Assembly (NCBI GenBank): GCA_023512415.1 | Contig: JAILZQ010000009.1 | Span: forward strand, 1 to 38,073 | Origin: Geminicoccaceae bacterium | GTDB lineage: Bacteria > Pseudomonadota > Alphaproteobacteria > Geminicoccales > Geminicoccaceae | Direction: 5' to 3' | DNA: 38,073 bases | Part shown: piece by piece, positions 6,168-15,467 of the stretch | How the letters are laid out: every line of letters starts with the position of its first letter | Numbering within the stretch: position 1 is the stretch's first letter | The notes under the pieces: generated by a model | Seen by the model: the letters and a program-made list of their open reading frames with translations, nothing else | Told to the model about the DNA's origin: nothing | Database searches by the model: none | Translations under genes and position numbers: made by a program

Positions 6168-7334
6168 TCAGCTGTGCCGCGAGCGCCCGGGCATGGCTCG
6201 GAGCACGGGCTCGCCCGCGAGCAGCGTGGCTTCGACGGTGGGCGGATCGGGGTCGGCACGGACCAGGAGGAGATCGGCCGTGGCACCCGGGACGATCCGG
6301 CCGAGCTCGGGTCGCCCGAGGAGATCGGCCGGGTGGCGGGTGGCGAGCGCCACCGCCTCGGGCAGGCCCACGAGACCCTCGCGCGCCGCCCGTAGCACGG
6401 CCGGCAGCAGCGTCTGCGGCGCGTAGTCGGAGCAGAGGCAGCGGGCGAGCCCCGTTGCGATCGCCGCCCGGGCGGCGAGCCCTCCCGACTGCGAGCCGCC
6501 GCGATAGAGGTTGGGGGCGCCCACGATCACGGAAAGGCCGTGCGCCGCGGCCGCGCGGGCGGCGTCGAGGTGGATCGGGAATTCGCTCGCGCGCACGCCG
6601 AGCGCGGCCAGGGCCACCACCCGCTCCAGACCATCGTCGTCGTGGCTCGCGAGGAGGACGCCTCGGGCGCGGGCGCGGCGAGCCAGCGCTTCGACCCGGG
6701 CCAGGGCGGCCGCGGCCTCGCTGCGCTTGGCCTCGACCCGGCGGGCGACCTCCTCGGCCGCAGTGCCGTAGGTGCGCGCGAGATAGACGGCGTAGGCCGC
6801 CAGATCGCGGAATTGGCCCTGGCCCGGTGTGTGGTCCATGAAGCTCAGGACCGCAGCTCCGCGCTCCAGGAGTTCGGCGACGACCGGTGCCGCCACGGGG
6901 TCGGTGATCTCGTAGCGCAGATGGAGGCGGTGGCGGACGAGGGGCGGTCCGGCGGGCTCGAGCACCGCCAGGGCCAAGGCGCGGGCCCGCTCCGGTTCGC
7001 GCAAGCCGAGCTCGCCGGAAGCGAACGCGATCGCGTGACACACGGTGGTGACGCCGGCGCAGGCGTAGCGTCGATCGGCTTGAACGAGGGCGAAGTGGGG
7101 CGGGAGGAACACCCCGGGCCTGGGCTCCGCCTCCTTCTCGAGGGCATCGCCGTGCAGGTCGACGAAGCCCGGCAGCACGAGTCGACCGCTGGCATCGAAA
7201 TCCCGCTGTCCGGGCGGCAGACGGTCGGCGATGTCGACGATACGGCCGTCCTCGATGGCGAGATCGGCGTCGGCGACCCGATCGGCGAGCACGAGGCGGC
7301 CGCCGCGCAGCGTGGTCGTGGCGCGCCCGCGCAT
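6168..7334 (-). CDS. phnM: PhnM, alpha-D-ribose 1-methylphosphonate 5-triphosphate diphosphatase
   Basis: 388 residues, close to the usual PhnM length. It belongs to the amidohydrolase superfamily. Visible elements are the metal-site motif PGFVDLHGDALEKE (His61, Asp63), the PhnM signature LSFMDHTPGQGQF, and the HDDD motif in LLASHDDDG. PhnM removes pyrophosphate from the ribose-phosphonate triphosphate made by PhnI with PhnG, PhnH and PhnL, producing the substrate of PhnJ. Its ATG at 7334 overlaps the phnL stop by one base (TGATG), so it is the last gene of the phn operon here. No phnN, phnO or phnP follows. Confidence 0.95.
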   Translation of the reverse strand: MRGRATTTLRGGRLVLADRVADADLAIEDGRIVDIADRLPPGQRDFDASGRLVLPGFVDLHGDALEKEAEPRPGVFLPPHFALVQADRRYACAGVTTVCHAIAFASGELGLREPERARALALAVLEPAGPPLVRHRLHLRYEITDPVAAPVVAELLERGAAVLSFMDHTPGQGQFRDLAAYAVYLARTYGTAAEEVARRVEAKRSEAAAALARVEALARRARARGVLLASHDDDGLERVVALAALGVRASEFPIHLDAARAAAAHGLSVIVGAPNLYRGGSQSGGLAARAAIATGLARCLCSDYAPQTLLPAVLRAAREGLVGLPEAVALATRHPADLLGRPELGRIVPGATADLLLVRADPDPPTVEATLLAGEPVLRAMPGRSRHS

Positions 7335-8041
7335 CAGGCGGCCTCCGCGGTTCCGCGCACCTCGACCACGCGATCGGCCGATCGTTCGATCGCTTCCGGA
7401 TCGTGGAAGATCGCGAGGATGCCGGCGCCGCGCGCCCTGGCGGCCACGATCTGCGCGAAGACCCTTTCCCGGGATGCCGGATCGAGGCTGGCCGTGGGTT
7501 CGTCGAGGAGCAGGAGTCGGGGCTCGGCGGCGAAGGCCCGCGCGAGGTTGACCCGTTGCCGCTCGCCGCCCGAGAACGTCGCGGGCGGCAAATCGACGAG
7601 CCTTTCGGGCAAGCCCGAGGCCCTGAGGGCCGAACGCGCCCGTTCTTCCGCGAGCGCGCGAGGCAGCCCCTGGCGGCGCAGCGGCCGGGCCACGACCTCG
7701 AGCGCCGAAAGCCGGGGCAAGGCGTGCAGGAACTGCGTGACGAACGCGAGCTCACGCACCCGGAGGGCCACGATTTCCGGTTCCGGCAAGGTGGCCAGAT
7801 CGAGGATGCGCTCGTCCGCCGGCCGATAGCGGATCGCCCCCGCGTCGGGTCGGTAGGTGCGCCAAATGCATTTGAGGACACTCGATTTGCCGGCGCCCGA
7901 CGGCCCCAGCAGAGCGACGATTTCGCCGGCGCGTACGGTGAAGGAAAGGCCGCGGAGCGCGACGACACGTCGGCCACGGGCGTGGATCGTGAACGTCTTT
8001 TCGAGGCCCGTGACCTCGAGCAGAGGCGGATCACCACTCAC
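7334..8041 (-). CDS. phnL: PhnL, C-P lyase system ABC-type ATPase
   Basis: 235 residues from a GTG at 8041 that overlaps the phnK stop (GTGA). The frame is open further upstream, but similarity begins here. Motifs: Walker A GPSGAGKS (46-53), the PhnL-typical VLKCIWRTYRPDAG region, signature FSGGERQR, Walker B LLLLDEPTA and a switch histidine in AIFHDPE. PhnL is an ABC-like ATPase required for the first step of C-P lyase, attachment of the phosphonate to ATP ribose together with PhnG, PhnH and PhnI. It has no membrane partner and is not a transporter subunit. Confidence 0.94.
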   Translation of the reverse strand: MSGDPPLLEVTGLEKTFTIHARGRRVVALRGLSFTVRAGEIVALLGPSGAGKSSVLKCIWRTYRPDAGAIRYRPADERILDLATLPEPEIVALRVRELAFVTQFLHALPRLSALEVVARPLRRQGLPRALAEERARSALRASGLPERLVDLPPATFSGGERQRVNLARAFAAEPRLLLLDEPTASLDPASRERVFAQIVAARARGAGILAIFHDPEAIERSADRVVEVRGTAEAA

Positions 8042-8868
8042 AGCGCCGCACTCACGAGTTCTTGGGTGTAGGGATGGTGGGGGTCTTCGAGGATCTGGTC
8101 GGTGAGCCCCGCTTCGACGACCGCACCGTGCCGCATCACCAAGGTGCGGCTGGCCAGATGCCGAACCACACCCAGATCGTGGGTGACCACGAGCATCGAA
8201 ACCGCGAGCTGTTCTTGCAGTTCGAGCACGAGGTCGAGGATCCGGGCCTGGACCGAGAGATCGAGTCCGGTCGTGATTTCGTCCAAGAGCAGGAGCGGCG
8301 GTTCGGTCGCCAGGGCCTTGGCGATTTGGACACGTTGTTGCATGCCACCCGAGAACCGCTTCGGCGGCTCGTCCATGCGTGTCGCGGGCACACCCGTCCG
8401 CTCCAACAGCTCGCGCGCGCGACTGCGCAAGAAGGCGTAGCGCACGCGTTCCGAAGCGATCAGCCGTTCGGCGATGTTGCCGCCGGCCGAGATCGACAGA
8501 TTGAGGCCGAGCATCGGGTTCTGGTAGACCACGCCGAGGCGCGTGTCGCGGAAGGCCCGCTGGCGGGCCGCATCGAGGGCGAAGAGGTCGATCACGCGAT
8601 CGGTTTCGTGGAAGACGGCCCGTCCGGCCGTCGGCGGCTCTTCGAAGCAGAGCAGGCGCACGAGGGTCGATTTCCCGGAGCCGGATTCGCCGATCACGCC
8701 CACGACTTCGCCCCGGTTCAACGTCAAGTTCACGCGGTTGAGTGCCACGACCGCGCCGCAGAGGGGGCAGCGGTTGGTCCCGTGGTCGGGACCCGTGGTT
8801 TCGAGGCATCGCGGGCAGCCTTGGCCGTGGATGCGGGTGAGACCGGACACTTCGAGGAGCGGGCTCAC
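8038..8868 (-). CDS. phnK: PhnK, C-P lyase core-complex ABC ATPase with Cys4 insertion
   Basis: 276 residues from a GTG at 8868 overlapping the phnJ stop (GTGA). Motifs: Walker A GESGSGKST (60-68), Q-loop VVYQNPMLGL, signature FSGGMQQR, Walker B LLLLDEI, H-loop VVTHDLG, and the PhnK-like C-terminus EDPHHPYTQELVSAAL. PhnK binds the PhnGHIJ core complex and is needed for C-P bond cleavage. Between the first two strands there is an extra segment with two CxxC pairs (Cys18/Cys21 and Cys34/Cys37, 12 residues between pairs), as in a small zinc ribbon. E. coli PhnK, as I recall its sequence, lacks this segment. Identity is firm; metal binding is inference. Confidence 0.94.
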   Translation of the reverse strand: MSPLLEVSGLTRIHGQGCPRCLETTGPDHGTNRCPLCGAVVALNRVNLTLNRGEVVGVIGESGSGKSTLVRLLCFEEPPTAGRAVFHETDRVIDLFALDAARQRAFRDTRLGVVYQNPMLGLNLSISAGGNIAERLIASERVRYAFLRSRARELLERTGVPATRMDEPPKRFSGGMQQRVQIAKALATEPPLLLLDEITTGLDLSVQARILDLVLELQEQLAVSMLVVTHDLGVVRHLASRTLVMRHGAVVEAGLTDQILEDPHHPYTQELVSAAL

Positions 8869-9746
8869 CGGTCCGATCTCCCGAGGGCGAGCATCTCGTC
8901 GCAGTAGGCGGTGTCGGAGCACTGGAAGACGCGCCGGCCGGCCGCATCGAAGAACTCGTCCAGAAAGCTCGTCGTCGAGCCGCAGCGGGCGCAAGCTCGT
9001 CTACGGCCGGTGGCCGGGTTGGTGAAGTCCTCGACGCGGAACGGAACATCCTCGAAGGTCAAGGGCTCGGCATCGGTGTTCGGCGGAACCGCGTAGATTT
9101 TCTTCTCACGTCCGGCGGCGAAAAGATAGAGGCAGGCCGCCCGGTGCAACTTCGGTACGTCGAACCGCGGGATCGGTGACGGGTCGATCACGTAATGACC
9201 GGCGATCCGCGTCGGATAACGGTGTGAGAGCGTGATTTCGGAAAAGGTCACCATGTCTTCGTAGAGTTTGACCCACAGCTTGGCATAGTCGGCGCGGCCG
9301 TGCATGAGGCGACGCTTCGCTTCGTTCGGCTCGACCACGACGAGGGGATCCGGATAGGGAACCTGAAGCACGAGGATCTGGTCCGCGCGCAGCGGGACCT
9401 CCGGGATCCGGTGGCGGGTCTGGATGAGCGTAGCCTCTTGCGTGCGCCGGGTTTCGCGGACCCCCGGGCAGGTCGAGAGGAAGAAGCGCCGCAGATTGGC
9501 GGCGTTCACGCTGTCGTCCGAGCCCTGGTCGATGACTTTGACGACCTCCTCGGGTCCGATCAGCGCGAGCGTCACTTGCAGTGCACCGGTCCCGAACCCG
9601 CGCGCGATCGGCAGCTCGCGCGAGGCGTAGGGAACTTGGTGGCCGGGAATACAGACCGCCTTGAAGATCGCCCGACGGAGTTCGCGTTTGGCGTCCTCGT
9701 CGAGATAGCCGAAACCGTGGCCGACGACGGGGGTGCTCGGGTTCAC
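8865..9746 (-). CDS. phnJ: PhnJ, alpha-D-ribose 1-methylphosphonate 5-phosphate C-P lyase
   Basis: 293 residues from a GTG at 9746 overlapping the phnI stop (GTGA). This start yields the N-terminal PhnJ pattern GYLDEDAKRELRRAIFKAV. PhnJ is the radical-SAM-type enzyme that breaks the carbon-phosphorus bond. The key cysteines are present with near-standard spacing: CARC (Cys252, Cys255), Cys276, then Cys282 five residues further on within CSDTAYC, matching the Fe-S ligands and thiyl-radical cysteine known in the E. coli enzyme. Other signatures are KVIDQGSDDS, IQTRHRIPE and DPSPIPRFD. It is about 12 residues longer than the E. coli protein. Confidence 0.97.
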   Translation of the reverse strand: MNPSTPVVGHGFGYLDEDAKRELRRAIFKAVCIPGHQVPYASRELPIARGFGTGALQVTLALIGPEEVVKVIDQGSDDSVNAANLRRFFLSTCPGVRETRRTQEATLIQTRHRIPEVPLRADQILVLQVPYPDPLVVVEPNEAKRRLMHGRADYAKLWVKLYEDMVTFSEITLSHRYPTRIAGHYVIDPSPIPRFDVPKLHRAACLYLFAAGREKKIYAVPPNTDAEPLTFEDVPFRVEDFTNPATGRRRACARCGSTTSFLDEFFDAAGRRVFQCSDTAYCDEMLALGRSDR

Positions 9747-10843
9747 GTTCGAAGCTCCACTCCGGCTTTGCTCCGAGCTGCGCGCAGCCGGTCGAGGTCC
9801 GACTGGAACGTCACGTAATGCGGCATCTTGTAGTGGATGCAGAAACCTTGGGATTCGATGCCGTCGACGTGCAGCAGGACGAAATCGGGGTCTTCCGAGG
9901 GGTTTTTCGGGCCGCCGGCGGCTGCGGCCGCACTCATCGCCCGGTCGAGCACCGCCATGGCGATCGCCTTGACTTCGTTGTGACCGAGGCAGGCGCCGTA
10001 GCCCACCGTGAACCGCGGCGGGCCGTCGTCCTCGCCGGTGAACATCGCGACGATCTCGCATTCGGTGACGAGCACCTCGCCGACCTCGATCGGCTCGCCG
10101 GTCACGGGGTGCGGGAGCTCGACCGGGAGGTAGCCCACCCGCAGCTCGCCCACGGTCGGATGGATGTCGCCGTAGCCGCGCATGTTGGAGTAGGCGAGTG
10201 CCAAGAGCCCGCCGGTTTCTCCGCGCGCCATGATCGCGAGAGCCGCCGAGCGGGGAACGGGAAAAACCAGCGGCTCGCGTGTGATGTCGAAGGCTCGTTC
10301 CGCCCTCGGCTCGAGGGGCGGGACCAGTCCCTCCGCGCGGAGCCGGTCGAGGATCTTGGGGGCGGTCGATGCGGGCACCGCATTCGGTCGCTCGGCGAGC
10401 CATCCGGCAAGGATCCGCTCGAGCGCTCCGTCCTCCTCGTCGAGGAGCTCGAAGCGGAACAGCCGGTGCAGATAATCGGGGGTGGCGCCGAGCATCTGGC
10501 CACCCGGCACGTCTTTGAACGCCGCGGAGATCCGCCGGACGAGCCGCATCCGCTCGGTATCGAGAGGGGCGGTCTCGCCGAGCCGGGGCCGGGTCGAGCG
10601 ATAGGCCCGCAAATAGAGTGCCGCCTCGAGAGGGTCGCCGAGCGCCTGCTTGACGGCCAGCGAGACCAGGCGCGGGTCGGCGAGCCCGCCCTCGGACATC
10701 ACCCGGCCGTGGAGGAAATGCAGCTGATGCTCGATCTGCTTCGGGTCGAGGGGCGGCCCGCCCCCCGCTGCGCGCAGGAGCTCCAGCGCGCGGGCAGCTT
10801 CGGCGATCGCCTCGGCTCCGCCCTTGACCGCGACGTAGCTCAT
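9743..10843 (-). CDS. phnI: PhnI, C-P lyase core subunit
   Basis: 366 residues from the ATG at 10843, which overlaps the phnH stop (ATGA). The frame runs open upstream but is not protein-like there. The start MSYVAVKGGAEAI is the standard PhnI N-terminus. The motif QIEHQLHFLHGRVMSEGG and the C-terminal HVDGIESQGFCIHYKMPHYV stretch are family hallmarks. PhnI is the nucleosidase-like subunit that exchanges the adenine of ATP for phosphonate in the presence of PhnG, PhnH and PhnL. Length is close to E. coli PhnI. Confidence 0.96.
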   Translation of the reverse strand: MSYVAVKGGAEAIAEAARALELLRAAGGGPPLDPKQIEHQLHFLHGRVMSEGGLADPRLVSLAVKQALGDPLEAALYLRAYRSTRPRLGETAPLDTERMRLVRRISAAFKDVPGGQMLGATPDYLHRLFRFELLDEEDGALERILAGWLAERPNAVPASTAPKILDRLRAEGLVPPLEPRAERAFDITREPLVFPVPRSAALAIMARGETGGLLALAYSNMRGYGDIHPTVGELRVGYLPVELPHPVTGEPIEVGEVLVTECEIVAMFTGEDDGPPRFTVGYGACLGHNEVKAIAMAVLDRAMSAAAAAGGPKNPSEDPDFVLLHVDGIESQGFCIHYKMPHYVTFQSDLDRLRAARSKAGVELRT

Positions 10844-11400
10844 CGGTGTTCCTCGATCCGGGTGGTGCGCGGGAGCACGGCAACCCGCTCCCGATCGGCG
10901 AGCACGACATCGACACCGCGCGGGAAGAACGCGCACCAGCCGCACCGCGCGGTGAGCCAAGACGGATCGAGACCCGCCACGGCCAAGCTTCGGGACCCTT
11001 CGATTCCGGGGCCGGAAAGGTGGAGCGATCGACCGCAGCCGACGCCTTCGACCCGCAGCACGAGCGTCGCGCCGCGTTCCGGTTCTTCGAGCGTACCGAG
11101 GGCCGGGACGAAGCCGGCCGGGACGGGCCGCCGACCGTCGCGCAAAAGCCAAGCCGCGCGGTCGGGCTCCTCGGATCGGGCGGGCAAGAAGGCCCGGTCG
11201 CGCGTGCCGAGGAGGCCGTCGGGGTCGGCGAAGCTCACCGCCCGGTCCACGAACACGGAGAGAACGACCAGCCAAGCCGGCGCACCGGCTGCGAGCCCGG
11301 AGAGCTCGGCAACCGTACCGGGTCGCGCCGTAGCGTCGAGCAGCCTCCGGAACACCCGTTGCCGGCAGGCCGGGGAAAAGACCGCGGGAACCTCGATCAA
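10840..11400 (-). CDS. phnH: PhnH, C-P lyase core subunit
   Basis: 186 residues from a TTG at 11400 overlapping the phnG stop (TTGA). This start was chosen because the protein then begins just before the family motif FSPACRQRVFRRLLDATARPG and matches the usual length of about 190 residues. Upstream codons of the same frame lie inside phnG and look like shadow sequence. Further PhnH-like features are RGPG-type glycine turns near GPGIEGSRSL and the C-terminal WCAFFPRGVDVVLADRERVAVLPRTT. PhnH is a structural subunit of the PhnGHIJ complex. Confidence 0.94.
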   Translation of the reverse strand: MIEVPAVFSPACRQRVFRRLLDATARPGTVAELSGLAAGAPAWLVVLSVFVDRAVSFADPDGLLGTRDRAFLPARSEEPDRAAWLLRDGRRPVPAGFVPALGTLEEPERGATLVLRVEGVGCGRSLHLSGPGIEGSRSLAVAGLDPSWLTARCGWCAFFPRGVDVVLADRERVAVLPRTTRIEEHR

Positions 11401-11891
11401 GCTTCCTCTCCCGCGAACTCCGAAAAGGCTCGGAAGTCGACCCGGGTTCGCGCGAGGAGCGTGGTCCGTCGTTCCTCGATCTCGGCCGCTCGTCGAGCGC
11501 CTGCCTGTAAAAGCGCGACCGCGTCCTCCCATCCGGGGAGGGCGTGCGCGAGCGCGGCGTCGAGCAAGGCGACGGCGCGTGCCAGGTCCAGATCCTCGTT
11601 CTGCACGATCGCACCACCCTCGCCGATCCGACCGTCCGCCGTGCTCACCCGCAAGGCGACGCGAGCGGCCGGCATCTCGCCGAGATGGAACGGTACACCA
11701 CCGACGCCGTCACGGACCGCGATCAACACCAACCCCGATTCCGGGGGGGCGAGCGGTTCGATCCGGACACGGGCGGCGATGGCCTTCGCGGTCGCCGAAA
11801 CCGCCTCGCGATCGACCAAGGAGAACAATCGGCTCCAGCTCGAACGAGCCGGTAAATCCGAGAGCGGCTGGTCGGTGCGAGAGGTGGTCAC
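11397..11891 (-). CDS. phnG: PhnG, C-P lyase core subunit
   Basis: 164 residues; the start overlaps the phnE stop (ATGA, 11888-11891). It carries the PhnG pattern: WSRLFSLVDREAV near the N-terminus, GEMPAARVALRV in the middle and the C-terminal region EIEERRTTLLARTRVDF. PhnG is part of the PhnGHIJ core. It is somewhat longer than the roughly 150-residue E. coli protein at its N-terminus. As the first catalytic gene after the transporter genes, it shows that import and cleavage are co-transcribed here. Confidence 0.94.
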   Translation of the reverse strand: MTTSRTDQPLSDLPARSSWSRLFSLVDREAVSATAKAIAARVRIEPLAPPESGLVLIAVRDGVGGVPFHLGEMPAARVALRVSTADGRIGEGGAIVQNEDLDLARAVALLDAALAHALPGWEDAVALLQAGARRAAEIEERRTTLLARTRVDFRAFSEFAGEEA

Positions 11892-12904
11892 AGGAGCCTC
11901 GCGCGCAGTCGTGCGGAAAGCTGGTCGAGCAAGAAAACCGTCACGAAGATAACGACTAAAATCGTGCCCACATGATCGTATTCGAAAAGATCGTAGCGCC
12001 CTTTGAGTTCTTGGCCGATCCCGCCGGCGCCGACCAAACCCACCACCGTGGCCATCCGAACGTTGCGATCGAGGATGTAGAGAGTATAAGCGACGTAAGA
12101 CGGTGCGACTTGCGGTAGCACGGCCGACCGCAACACGCGCAATTTCGAGGCGCCGAGCGCCAGCAACGCCTCCTGCGGTTTTTTGTCCGCTGCCTCGATG
12201 TCTTCGGCGTAGAACTTACCGAGGAAACCGGCCGCGTGCAGGCCGAGCGCCAGGATCCCGGCGATCGGGCCGAAGCCGAAGGCCAAGACGAGGAACAAGG
12301 CCGAGACGAGTTCGGGGATCGCCCGCAGGAAGCTCACCAAGCCTCGAGCGGCCAGATAGACCGAGCGATGGGGCGTGTAATTGGCGGCGGCCAGGATCGC
12401 GAGTGGGGCACTCAGGAGCACCGAGAGGATCGTCGCCCAGAGCGCGATCTCGAGTGTCTCCAGCATTTTCCCGAGGACACGCAGGAGGTAGCCAAAGGGT
12501 TCGACGAGGTACTCCTTGGTTTCGACGATCGGGACGAGTTGCAACGTTTGGCGGTCGAGCTCGTAGCGGGTCGTCTCGACCCGCTCGATCCGGGCGAGCC
12601 AAGGAAGATTCTCGCGGTCGATCTCCGAAAGTCGGGCGAGCTCACGCCGCTCTTCGACGGCGATCGGGAACAAGCTCTGGATCATGCGACCGAGGCCGCG
12701 GCCGACCTGGCTCTCCTCGGCGAGGCCGAGCTGGGCGAGGATGGCCTCACCGGTGAGCGCGGTGAACCGATCGAGCTCGACCCGTTGGCCGGAGAGGATC
12801 AAGCAGAAGCCCACCACCAGGACCGCGAGCGCCGTCCGCCAGTCGTAAGGCGGGTCGAGCCGGGCGGCCGTGTCGCGGAACCGGGGTCGGATGGCGCGGA
12901 TCAC
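11888..12904 (-). CDS. phnE: PhnE, phosphonate ABC transporter permease with enlarged N-terminal periplasmic loop
   Basis: 338 residues, longer than the roughly 260 usual for PhnE. One membrane helix (about 24-40) is followed by some 100 mostly charged residues, then the standard BPD_transp_1 core: helices from about 148 onward, an EAA loop EALLALGASKLRVLRSAVLPQ (245-265) and the PhnE-typical YILDRNVRMATVVGLVGAGGIG. It forms the inner-membrane channel for phosphonates with the PhnC ATPase. The start at 12904 lies 3 bases after the phnC stop. The extra segment between the first and second helices should face the periplasm; what it does is unknown. Confidence 0.93.
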   Translation of the reverse strand: MIRAIRPRFRDTAARLDPPYDWRTALAVLVVGFCLILSGQRVELDRFTALTGEAILAQLGLAEESQVGRGLGRMIQSLFPIAVEERRELARLSEIDRENLPWLARIERVETTRYELDRQTLQLVPIVETKEYLVEPFGYLLRVLGKMLETLEIALWATILSVLLSAPLAILAAANYTPHRSVYLAARGLVSFLRAIPELVSALFLVLAFGFGPIAGILALGLHAAGFLGKFYAEDIEAADKKPQEALLALGASKLRVLRSAVLPQVAPSYVAYTLYILDRNVRMATVVGLVGAGGIGQELKGRYDLFEYDHVGTILVVIFVTVFLLDQLSARLRARLL

Positions 12905-12907
12905 GGC

Positions 12908-13711
12908 TCAGGCCGCGAGCTCGAGGCGGTCGGTCGGGAAACCATGGCCGTAGATCCGGGCGAGAGCGGCGTCGTCGAGGCGTTCGGGTGGCCCGTCGAA
13001 AACGATCCGGCCGGCCCGCAGGCCCAGGATCCGGTCGGCGAAGCGCACGGCGAGCTCGGGCTGGTGCAGGCTGCACAGCACGGTCGCGCTCCGCTCGCGG
13101 GCCGCTTCGCGGAGCAGCGACAAGATGTCCTGCGCCGTGGTCGGGTCGAGGCTCGCCACGGGCTCGTCCGCGAGCAGCAGATCGGGATCGCACAAGAACG
13201 CCCGGGCGATGCCGACGCGCTGCTGCTGACCACCCGACAGCTCGCCGACCCGGCGGTGCAGGTGTTGCGGTTCGAGCCCGACGCGGAGCACCAGCGCCAC
13301 GGCTTTGTTCCGCAGAGGTTCCGGGAACCAGTGCAAGAGCGCCCGCCACGCGGGGACCTGTGCGATGGCTCCGGTGAGGACGTTGATCCCCACCGGAGCC
13401 CGCTCGACCAGGTTGAAGTGTTGGTGGACCATGGCGACACGGCGCCGGATCTCCGGCAGGGTACGGGGGCTCGAGCGCCGGCCGATGACCTCGATCGTTC
13501 CGGCGTCCGGTGCCACGAGGCCGTTGACGCAGCGCAGCAGCGTCGACTTGCCGGAGCCCGAGGGGCCGAGCAGCACGCAGAACTGGCCGCGCGGTACGGC
13601 GAAGCTCACACCGTCGAGCGCCTTGGTGCCGTCCGGGAAGGTCTTCCTGACATCGTGGAAGGCCAACACCACCCGCTCGCCGACGGTCGCCTGGTCCACC
13701 GGGGAGGTCAT
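12908..13711 (-). CDS. phnC: PhnC, phosphonate ABC transporter ATP-binding protein
   Basis: 267 residues; the ATG at 13711 overlaps the phnD stop (ATGA). The ABC ATPase motifs are complete: Walker A GPSGSGKST (49-57), Q-loop VHQHFNLVER, signature LSGGQQQR, Walker B LLLADEPVAS and H-loop CSLHQPE. The VHQHFNLV and SLDP patterns fit the phosphonate-import (PhnC) subgroup. It energises uptake by PhnD-PhnE. Internal distances match family members, with no truncation. Confidence 0.95.
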   Translation of the reverse strand: MTSPVDQATVGERVVLAFHDVRKTFPDGTKALDGVSFAVPRGQFCVLLGPSGSGKSTLLRCVNGLVAPDAGTIEVIGRRSSPRTLPEIRRRVAMVHQHFNLVERAPVGINVLTGAIAQVPAWRALLHWFPEPLRNKAVALVLRVGLEPQHLHRRVGELSGGQQQRVGIARAFLCDPDLLLADEPVASLDPTTAQDILSLLREAARERSATVLCSLHQPELAVRFADRILGLRAGRIVFDGPPERLDDAALARIYGHGFPTDRLELAA

Positions 13712-14640
13712 TGGCTGGCCGCGGCCTTCTCGAGGATCGCCCGGCGCACCTCACCGCTCACTTTCGCGAGGGTGACGAGCGCCGGCTTCATCATGTCCTC
13801 GTCGATCGAGCTGTCGTAGCGGTCCACCTTCTTACCGCCGTAGCCGCGGATCTGCTCCGGGTTGACGCCGGGCATCGTGTGCACCGAACCGAACGCCGCT
13901 TTGAGCTTCGCCTTGACTTCGGCGGGGAGCTTCGTGCTCATCGCGATCGGCGGGTTCGGGATCGGGTCGGACTTGGCGAGCACCCTGAACTTGCCCGGCT
14001 CCAGGACCTTCTGGTTGACCGCCTTCTCGAAGCTGTCGAAGGACGCCGCGGCCGCGTCGACCCTGCCCTCGGCGAGCGCCTTCAAGCTGTTGGCGTGGCT
14101 GCCGGTCATCCGGATGGCGGCCAGGTCCTTGGCCGGGTCGAGACCGGCGGCGAGCAACATCGCCACCGGGTAGACGAAGCTCGAGGTCGAATTGGCGTCG
14201 CCGAAGGCCACGGTCTTGCCCTCGAGGTCGGCGAGCGAGCGAACCGGTGAGTCCGCCGGGACGAAAATGCCGGAGTAATAGACGGCTTGACCGTGATGGA
14301 CGTCGACGGCCAGGAGCTCGGCGCAACCCCGCTCGCGGGCGGGCAAATAGCTCGCCGGGCCGAACCAAGCGATCTCGGTCACGCCGGCGCAGATCGCCTC
14401 GACCACGGCACCGTAGGTCTGGCCCACTTTGATGTCGAAGTGCAGCCCGGTGGCCTTGGTCACGGCGTCGAAGAGCGGCTTGAAATCCGCCTTGGTGCCG
14501 TCCTCGGTGCCGCCGTCGGCCGGCACGAGGGTCGCGCGGAACGGTCGCGCCGGGCTGCCGTCCGGGATCTGTTGGGCCGCGAGCGGCGCGGCTAAGATGA
14601 CTGCCGCGGTCGCGGCGGCGAGTACGCTCGGAAGCTTCAT
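13708..14640 (-). CDS. phnD: PhnD, periplasmic phosphonate-binding protein
   Basis: 310 residues. A Sec signal peptide covers residues 1-22 (hydrophobic AAATAAVILAAPLAA, cut expected near LAAQ). The mature protein is a type II periplasmic binding protein of the phosphate/phosphite/phosphonate family: LVPADGGTEDGTKADFKPL near the N-terminus, FGPASYLPARERG, GKTVAFGDANSTSSFVYP and GSHANSLKALAEGRVDAAAASF are typical ligand-site segments. It delivers phosphonates to PhnE. The start overlaps the phnF stop (ATGA), so the repressor gene and binding-protein gene are translated together. Confidence 0.95.
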   Translation of the reverse strand: MKLPSVLAAATAAVILAAPLAAQQIPDGSPARPFRATLVPADGGTEDGTKADFKPLFDAVTKATGLHFDIKVGQTYGAVVEAICAGVTEIAWFGPASYLPARERGCAELLAVDVHHGQAVYYSGIFVPADSPVRSLADLEGKTVAFGDANSTSSFVYPVAMLLAAGLDPAKDLAAIRMTGSHANSLKALAEGRVDAAAASFDSFEKAVNQKVLEPGKFRVLAKSDPIPNPPIAMSTKLPAEVKAKLKAAFGSVHTMPGVNPEQIRGYGGKKVDRYDSSIDEDMMKPALVTLAKVSGEVRRAILEKAAASQ

Positions 14641-15467
14641 GGGACGATGTCTCCGGGTTGGTCTCGTTCGCTCGGGGGGAGCGGTGCCGCGACCGCGCCC
14701 GCTCCGGGCACGGCCGCAACGTCTCCGGTCGGGCGGGGGTAAGCCTCGACCAGGAGCTCGATCCGGTCACCGCGGAAGCGGGTGACCGAGTATTCGACGG
14801 GCCGACCGGTCCGCGCGCAGACGTTCACACCCTTGACACGCAGGATCGGCCGGGTTGCGGGCTGGCGCAGGAGCCGCGCGTCCTCGGGCTCGGGCAAGCG
14901 TGCCGTGACGAGGCTCGTCCGTCGCTCGAGGACGAGACCGCAGCGTTCGGCCAGGAAGGCGTGCAGCGAGCCGCCGCGATAGGTCCCGAGGACGACATCG
15001 GCTTCGGGCGGCGCGACGAAGTGGGTGATCAGACAGAGCGGCAAGTCCTTGGCGAAGCGTAGTGTCACGAGCCGGGCGAGCGGTGTGCCGGCGGCGAGTT
15101 CCAAGCGTCGGGCGACGCCGCCCTCGGCGGGCACCGCGGCGGCCGCCACGAGCACGCTCCGGCCTTCGAGGCCGGCCTCTTCGAGCCGCAAGGTGAACCG
15201 CGTCGTCCGGTCGATCGCGTAGACGAGATCCGGGCCGAGCACGCGCACGCCGCGGCCGTGTTCCCGGCGGACCAGCCCCTCGGCGACGAGCTCGTCGATC
15301 GCGCGACGAAGGGTCAGCCGGCTGACGCCGAAGGCGGCGGCGAGCTCCGCCTCGGCCGGCAAGAAGTCGTCCGGCTCGTAGCGCTCGGCGATCTCGCGCC
15401 GCAGCCGCTCGGCGATCGCCGGCCACAGCGCCGGCCCGGTGCTCCGTTCGACGGTCGTGAGGCCCAT
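14637..15467 (-). CDS. phnF: PhnF, GntR/HutC-family regulator of phosphonate genes
   Basis: 276 residues. The N-terminus is a GntR winged helix-turn-helix (FLPAEAELAAAFGVSRLTLRRAIDEL, about 35-60). It is followed by a UTRA ligand-binding domain (about 95-240) with the recurrent pattern TTRFTLRLEEAG and RVKGVNVCARTGRPVEYSVTRFRGDRIEL. A Gly/Ala/Pro-rich tail of about 30 residues extends past the usual end. PhnF proteins repress phn operons and are released by a phosphorylated ligand. GGAGG sits 5 bases before the ATG at 15467. It is the first gene of the operon, so autoregulation is likely through the dyad just upstream. Confidence 0.93.
   Translation of the reverse strand: MGLTTVERSTGPALWPAIAERLRREIAERYEPDDFLPAEAELAAAFGVSRLTLRRAIDELVAEGLVRREHGRGVRVLGPDLVYAIDRTTRFTLRLEEAGLEGRSVLVAAAAVPAEGGVARRLELAAGTPLARLVTLRFAKDLPLCLITHFVAPPEADVVLGTYRGGSLHAFLAERCGLVLERRTSLVTARLPEPEDARLLRQPATRPILRVKGVNVCARTGRPVEYSVTRFRGDRIELLVEAYPRPTGDVAAVPGAGAVAAPLPPSERDQPGDIVP

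Follow-up and report, generated by a model that had tools for sequence, protein, structure and literature searches.

A four-cysteine hairpin beside the ATP site in a variant of the C-P lyase subunit PhnK

Described systems and the C-P lyase operon of the window

PhnK is an ABC ATPase subunit of C-P lyase, a type of protein in which the aromatic residue of the A-loop stacks on the adenine of ATP. In the structures of Escherichia coli PhnK (7z15-7z19), as described in PMC9947105 (partial text), PhnK and its sister ABC subunit PhnL share one orientation on the core of the complex, and the beta1-beta2 hairpin of PhnL extends from the PhnL underside onto PhnK. The PhnK studied here is encoded in a stretch of 38,073 nucleotides from a Geminicoccaceae bacterium (contig JAILZQ010000009.1), called the window throughout. 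It has the ABC fold and motifs of E. coli PhnK, the gene order phnJ-phnK-phnL and most of the PhnJ contact residues (compared with PMC9947105, partial text), but it carries a 23-residue insert with four cysteines that the E. coli protein is without. The PhnL hairpin (7-14 in E. coli) is similar as a beta1/beta2 extension used in subunit contact, but it has no cysteines in either the E. coli or the window sequence and touches PhnK, not the core. Four-cysteine metal sites critical for assembly are known from near ABC relatives, the C-terminal domains of DppD, DppF and OppD, which differ from the insert in their position, their cysteine spacing and their binding of a [4Fe-4S] cluster; Cys-to-Ser exchanges in those of DppD/DppF make the transporter fall apart (PMC12136057, partial text). 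Two CxxC knuckles, with the form CPxCG, also characterize zinc ribbons (TFIIB, PF08271; Zn_ribbon_3), whereas the PhnK insert scores below the Pfam cut-offs and is set in an ABC hairpin. In NBD1 of CFTR, where Trp401 is the A-loop residue, a regulatory insertion joins beta1 and beta2; it is phosphorylated, unlike the PhnK insert, and we know of no metal site in it. It resembles the PhnK insert in beginning soon after Trp401, with 405-407 as its first residues, and the residues right after Trp401 were proposed to contact a coupling helix, although an R170C/W401C cross-link tried in the same work was not seen (PMC5290968, partial text).

An original prediction from the window's letters had placed phnK at 8038-8868. 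Both the coordinates and the identity proved right, with the gene on the minus strand (8868-8038), since a plus-strand reading gives a different sequence. The gene is flanked by phnJ on one side and phnL on the other within phnGHIJKL, in an operon that runs on the minus strand from a GntR/UTRA regulator through phnD-, phnC- and phnE-like genes, phnG, phnH, phnI, phnJ, phnK and phnL to a phnM-like gene (Table 1). Neither phnN nor phnP follows phnM in the window (below 6168), where Methylibium, Marinobacter and Thiothrix have phnN or phnP. The best PhnP-like (C48, 84.5 bits) and PhnN-like (C215, 50.1 bits) matches of the genome lie on other contigs, both below cut-off.

Besides Walker A, the PhnK motifs were located at Gln116 (Q loop), residues 172-179 (signature), 192-197 (Walker B) and His230 (H switch). 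Synteny and the trees mark the protein as a divergent PhnK; it lies outside the NCBIfam equivalog model TIGR02323, with 224.1 bits against a cut-off of 302.85, a score taken for the window protein only among the insert-bearing PhnKs. AlphaFold2, run on an 18-row alignment, gave a full-length model with a mean pLDDT of 84.3, for which structural comparison returned E. coli PhnK (7z19_I) first, with Z 28.0, rmsd 2.7 and 242 aligned residues; MetN followed at Z 27.9, only 0.1 apart, so that the fold alone cannot decide the identity. A second structure comparison was also headed by E. coli PhnK chains, with other ABC proteins close behind.

In the PhnJ tree, the closest relative of the window PhnJ came from a genus mate (89%). 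Its nearest counterpart among plasmid records was that of Methylibium (76%), and the best other match within the class sample reached 57%. As phn genes were found in two of the six genomes of the genus looked at, this pattern of similarity suggests that the phn operon at 6168-15467 was transferred.

Table 1. Features of the phn operon and of its phnK gene in the window (coordinates in nucleotides, residues of the window PhnK)
Feature	Position	Strand	Description or basis
phnM-like amidohydrolase	6168..7334	-	PF07969, E 2.5e-10; same place as in Methylibium
phnL	7334..8041	-	TIGR02324, E 3e-73, 246 bits, slightly below cut-off 256.3
phnK	8038..8868	-	276 aa, GTG start at 8868; C-P lyase ABC ATPase subunit with four-cysteine hairpin
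Walker A GESGSGKS, residues 60-67	8668..8691	-	translation
Insert between beta1 and beta2, residues 15-39	8752..8826	-	AlphaFold2 strands beta1 3-14, beta2 40-51; 23 residues more than E. coli
Second CxxC, Cys34 and Cys37 (CPLCG)	8758..8769	-	translation, alignment
First CxxC, Cys18 and Cys21	8806..8817	-	translation, alignment
A-loop aromatic position, His14 (E. coli Tyr15)	8827..8829	-	H/Y/F in 52/52 Cys4 rows
phnJ, all four Fe-S cysteines present	8865..9743	-	PF06007, E 3.9e-130; alignment
phnI	9743..10867	-	PF05861, E 6.4e-140
phnH, start uncertain	10840..11403	-	PF05845, E 4e-37
phnG	11397..11891	-	PF06754, E 1.1e-27
Upstream genes, whole block	11888..15467	-	Pfam matches; phn names after Methylibium gene order
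phnE-like	11888-12904	-	Pfam match
phnC-like	12908-13711	-	Pfam match
phnD-like	13708-14640	-	Pfam match
GntR/UTRA regulator, phnF-like	14637-15467	-	Pfam match

The four-cysteine insert and its conservation

Translation confirmed the two predicted CxxC pairs, Cys18/21 and Cys34/37, ahead of Walker A. As the original prediction stated, E. coli PhnK lacks such an insert: its sequence in NC_000913.3 is free of cysteines in this stretch. The A-loop aromatic and Walker A are 23 residues apart in E. coli K-12 versus 46 in most insert-bearing rows, and Cys18 stands four residues past the aromatic. The insert region is among the confidently predicted parts of the model (pLDDT about 95-97 for residues 11-50), and a 57-residue hairpin modelled alone reached a mean pLDDT of 93.6, with about 96-98 for residues 11-40. 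A probable metal site is the natural reading of the four cysteines. An Opp/Dpp-type C-terminal four-cysteine domain was not found in the window PhnK, whose last cysteine lies at or before residue 74 and in which oligo_HPY matched 24 of 65 positions (24.1 bits, below the cut-off of 27.1). Searched against Pfam, the window insert (30 residues) had its best match in PF08271, the TFIIB zinc ribbon (E 0.00084), whose layout of one CxxC pair followed by another it shares. Judged by sequence, it thus resembles this zinc ribbon, yet it is not classed as one because 19.3 bits fall short of the gathering score of 29. Among four further inserts, PF08271 headed the Pfam matches of L059 and L076 (E 0.055 and 0.083) and Zn_ribbon_19 those of L080 (E 0.28), while L056 had no match. 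A fold search of the PDB with the hairpin model alone gave no significant match and a hairpin profile against PDB sequences nothing credible (best E 0.13, CTCF), results that show neither novelty nor absence.

Among 176 phnJ-linked PhnK rows, which include repeat fetches of the same locus (L022, L112 and L140 among the 52 rows with the four cysteines, here Cys4 rows; L032, L041, L049, L051, L084 and L184 among the 114 E. coli-type rows), the A-loop aromatic and Walker A stood 23-24 residues apart in 123 and at least 31 in 53. When rows were split by this distance only, with cysteines ignored so that the test was not circular, at least four cysteines were counted in the segment of 52/53 long rows versus 0/123 short ones. 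The long exception, L154, is an E. coli-type protein with 31 residues and no cysteine pairs. Gly15, Cys18, Cys34 and Cys37 are invariant in the 52 Cys4 rows and Cys21 is kept in 51, L061 having CX3C; the two pairs are separated by 7 to 13 residues, usually 12, and many of the intervening residues vary. The original prediction had made conservation of the cysteines in orthologues one of its tests, and they are indeed kept throughout the insert-bearing set, but the insert is wholly absent from two clades.

Carriers belong to the Alpha-, Beta- and Gammaproteobacteria, Desulfobulbus, Chloroflexota, Verrucomicrobiota and, from plasmids only, haloarchaea, Bacillota (one record) and Actinomycetota (one record). 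Tblastn with the first 70 PhnK residues against plasmid records gave 14 matching records, with the genera Natribaculum, Marinobacter, Haloarcula, Methylibium, Halomarina, Halorientalis, Thiothrix, Natrinema, Haloferax and Arthrobacter. Among the records examined from this set, phnK comes after phnJ, as it does in Mesobacillus and Natronorubrum, whose PhnKs have the four cysteines as well. A scan of genome contigs with the insert alignment led to 18 loci, assigned by their titles to Alpha-, Beta- and Gammaproteobacteria, Chloroflexi, Verrucomicrobia, Syntrophales and Desulfobulbus; the 17 with a full PhnK all have the four cysteines, and the 18th (L081) is cut. With carriers in many other genomes, the insert is no oddity of the window genome, and its conservation in independent genomes rules out a sequencing or frame artefact.

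As the contig scan targeted the insert itself, it gives no information on frequency, for which surveys were seeded by PhnJ, blind to the insert, with types read row by row and tallied by hand; the window's genome or the seed genome is among those counted, and the class and phylum surveys overlap in genomes. Besides insert-bearing and E. coli-type proteins, they returned an insert-free third type (see below). In the window's class, 49 phnJ places were found in 48 of 289 genomes, and the PhnKs readable beside 48 of them comprised one with the insert (the window's), one of the third type and 46 of the E. coli type. The window's phylum gave 57 rows in 52/299 genomes; after one fragment was dropped, two of 56 had the insert, three were of the third type and 51 of the E. 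coli type. The insert is therefore rare within the window's own phylum. The phylum of the Chloroflexi locus had phnJ in 19/251 genomes (14 with insert, five of the third type), that of Desulfobulbus in 16/247 (eight with insert, eight of the E. coli type, a 19.5-bit fragment having been dropped) and that of the Verrucomicrobia locus in 3/194, all three with insert.

The hairpin appears specific to PhnK as far as we looked. With the hairpin profile against 299 Pseudomonadota genomes, at most 21 candidates being scored per genome, the 28 match rows listed were headed by two PhnKs (105 and 96 bits), the next reaching 28 bits, and cysteine pairs before Walker A occurred in two of 20 examined rows among the matches listed, both PhnK. 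Five ABC ATPases (L195, L196, L197, L202 and L204; frames of 405-432 aa), which we take to be ProV-like, also carry an insertion at this point past the A-loop, but one that lacks the cysteine pairs. Insert-bearing PhnKs in the plasmid records examined (L056-L060, L062, L187-L189) are annotated 'ATP-binding cassette domain-containing protein'. The four-cysteine hairpin is a variant within the known PhnK family, and no cysteine insert in PhnK was mentioned in the literature listings searched or in the accessible part of PMC9947105, most subscription papers, supplements and bioRxiv lying outside the scope of the search.

Three types of PhnK and the Fe-S cysteines of PhnJ

A quick PhnJ tree of 97 rows, from which near copies were dropped and for which the remaining E. 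coli-type rows were thinned to every other one, separates the PhnK types cleanly, with SH-aLRT 99 for the E. coli type, 99 for the third type, and the Cys4 rows as the rest. Outside its class, the nearest relatives of the window PhnJ were beta- and gammaproteobacterial. The tree needs two changes among the three types, the second insert-free clade being nested in Cys4 lineages; in a test of joined PhnJ and PhnK columns from 63 hand-chosen rows, a single split of Cys4 versus the rest was not rejected (AU p 0.469), and the base of a PhnK tree with Opp/Dpp-like proteins from the window's genome as outgroup was unresolved. By these alignments, one gain of the insert and two losses would both be compatible with the trees.

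In all 114 E. coli-type rows, PhnJ keeps the four Fe-S cysteines and PhnK lacks the four-cysteine insert; the Haloarcula PhnJ has all four Fe-S cysteines as well. In the third type (L025, L063, L120, L125-L128, L152, L153 and L185), by contrast, three of the four (E. coli 244, 266 and 272) are lost in 10/10 rows, with Gly32 kept, and the PhnK insert is absent, likewise in 10/10. These rows come from five genomes of the Chloroflexi phylum, Haematobacter and Thermus plasmids and three genomes of the window's class, and the third type could be a C-P-lyase-like machine without a radical cluster. Two genomes of this class, G376 (L098, L149, L152) and G490 (L086, L150, L153), have three phnJ copies each, one standard, one divergent E. 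coli-type and one Fe-S-less. An ancestral metal knuckle of C-P lyase, still kept in many lineages, might have coupled the PhnK ATP site to the state of PhnJ, the E. coli line losing the knuckle and the third clade losing it together with the PhnJ Fe-S cysteines, which would leave the machine without a radical cluster, but we consider this course of events quite improbable.

Possible role of the hairpin

From its conservation, its position and its predicted fold, we propose, at roughly even odds (about 0.5), that the insert defines a conserved PhnK subfamily in which a hairpin with two CxxC knuckles on one metal ion, likeliest zinc, acts as clamp and lever at the core face. The two knuckles, just past the ATP-stacking aromatic, would hold the ion, which would stiffen the beta1-beta2 hairpin, and the knuckle would project from the PhnK face seated on the C-P lyase core and add a contact with its PhnJ side. 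As this contact would be tied to the A-loop, ATP binding, dimer closure and core opening may be coupled more tightly. The direction of the E. coli PhnL hairpin and the orientation shared by both subunits imply that the PhnK hairpin should face the core, and the precedents of PhnL, CFTR and Dpp are why a metal-stiffened clamp is favoured here.

The E. coli docking residues are largely present in the Cys4 rows, on the PhnJ side as Asp229 (52/52), Tyr158 (51/52) and Glu149 (D/E in 48/52), and on the PhnK side as Arg78 (46/52), Tyr118 (Y/F in 40/52) and Arg116 (30/52). PhnJ Asp226, one of the contact residues in E. coli, is present in just 4/52, so the contact between PhnK and PhnJ in Cys4 systems is not identical to that of E. 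coli. Against a clamp stands the E. coli PhnK, which is functional and docks despite having no insert. Two PhnJ columns track the insert, 166 and 169 in E. coli numbering, where the PhnK-binding region ends; they hold mostly acidic or aliphatic residues in Cys4 rows and basic or polar ones in both insert-free types. Seven control groupings were comparable, with 0 to 4 PhnJ columns each (15 in total, six of them in the PhnK-binding region, one control having two there), so that these columns carry no usable signal and PhnJ-PhnK co-variation was dropped as evidence. For PhnI (14 columns, controls 0-12) and PhnL (2, controls 0-3), as for PhnJ, no co-variation clearly above controls was detected. 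An apparent loss of PhnK Arg82 in Cys4 rows (Asn in 37/52) was also set aside, since it hinges on the placement of a one-residue gap, Arg107 being invariant in 18/18 rows. PhnL Arg82 has been called fully conserved (PMC9947105, partial text); among 162 rows, we read arginine at PhnL position 82 (E. coli numbering) in 80 E. coli-type and 13 Cys4 rows, possibly a gap effect.

These co-variation results would also suit a knuckle that binds zinc solely to hold a long hairpin, as a neutral relic or stability element with no part in docking or catalysis, and so would the variable spacer and the two clades that manage without the insert. We regard this as possible, if rather unlikely, for a dispensable loop should decay more often than is seen, whereas the four cysteines are kept across bacteria and archaea and the only long row without them, L154, itself falls in the E. 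coli-type clade.

With Cys18 standing so near the A-loop aromatic, metal loss or oxidation might shift the A-loop and stop ATP binding when PhnJ, an oxygen-sensitive Fe-S radical enzyme, cannot work, and the sole clade with an Fe-S-less PhnJ is also without the insert (10/10 rows). Such a redox or metal switch is nevertheless doubtful, as knuckles of the Zn(Cys)4 kind tend to be inert, the E. coli-type rows pair an Fe-S PhnJ with a PhnK lacking the site in 114 of 114 cases, and the Fe-S-less clade represents just one event. The [4Fe-4S] Dpp transporter, which oxidants dissociate (PMC12136057, partial text), would be its precedent.

That the site carries iron or an Fe-S cluster and passes it or electrons to PhnJ, the cluster delivery considered in the original prediction, is very unlikely, because E. 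coli-type PhnJ keeps its cysteines beside an insert-free PhnK (114/114) and the CPxCG knuckle and weak Pfam matches suggest zinc ribbons, while the docking of PhnK on PhnJ (PMC9947105, partial text) and the insert-free, Fe-S-less clade, a link seen in a single clade, speak for it. In E. coli, one bound PhnK brought no change at the putative Fe-S site, which contradicts an earlier report cited there (PMC9947105, partial text).

Naming models may overlook PhnKs of this kind, as the window protein scores below the TIGR02323 cut-off and those on plasmids are named only as ATP-binding cassette proteins. The PhnK structures met in this analysis are all from E. coli and thus without the four-cysteine module; four cysteines beside the ATP site, missing from the model system, are a concrete handle on which step of the machine fails.
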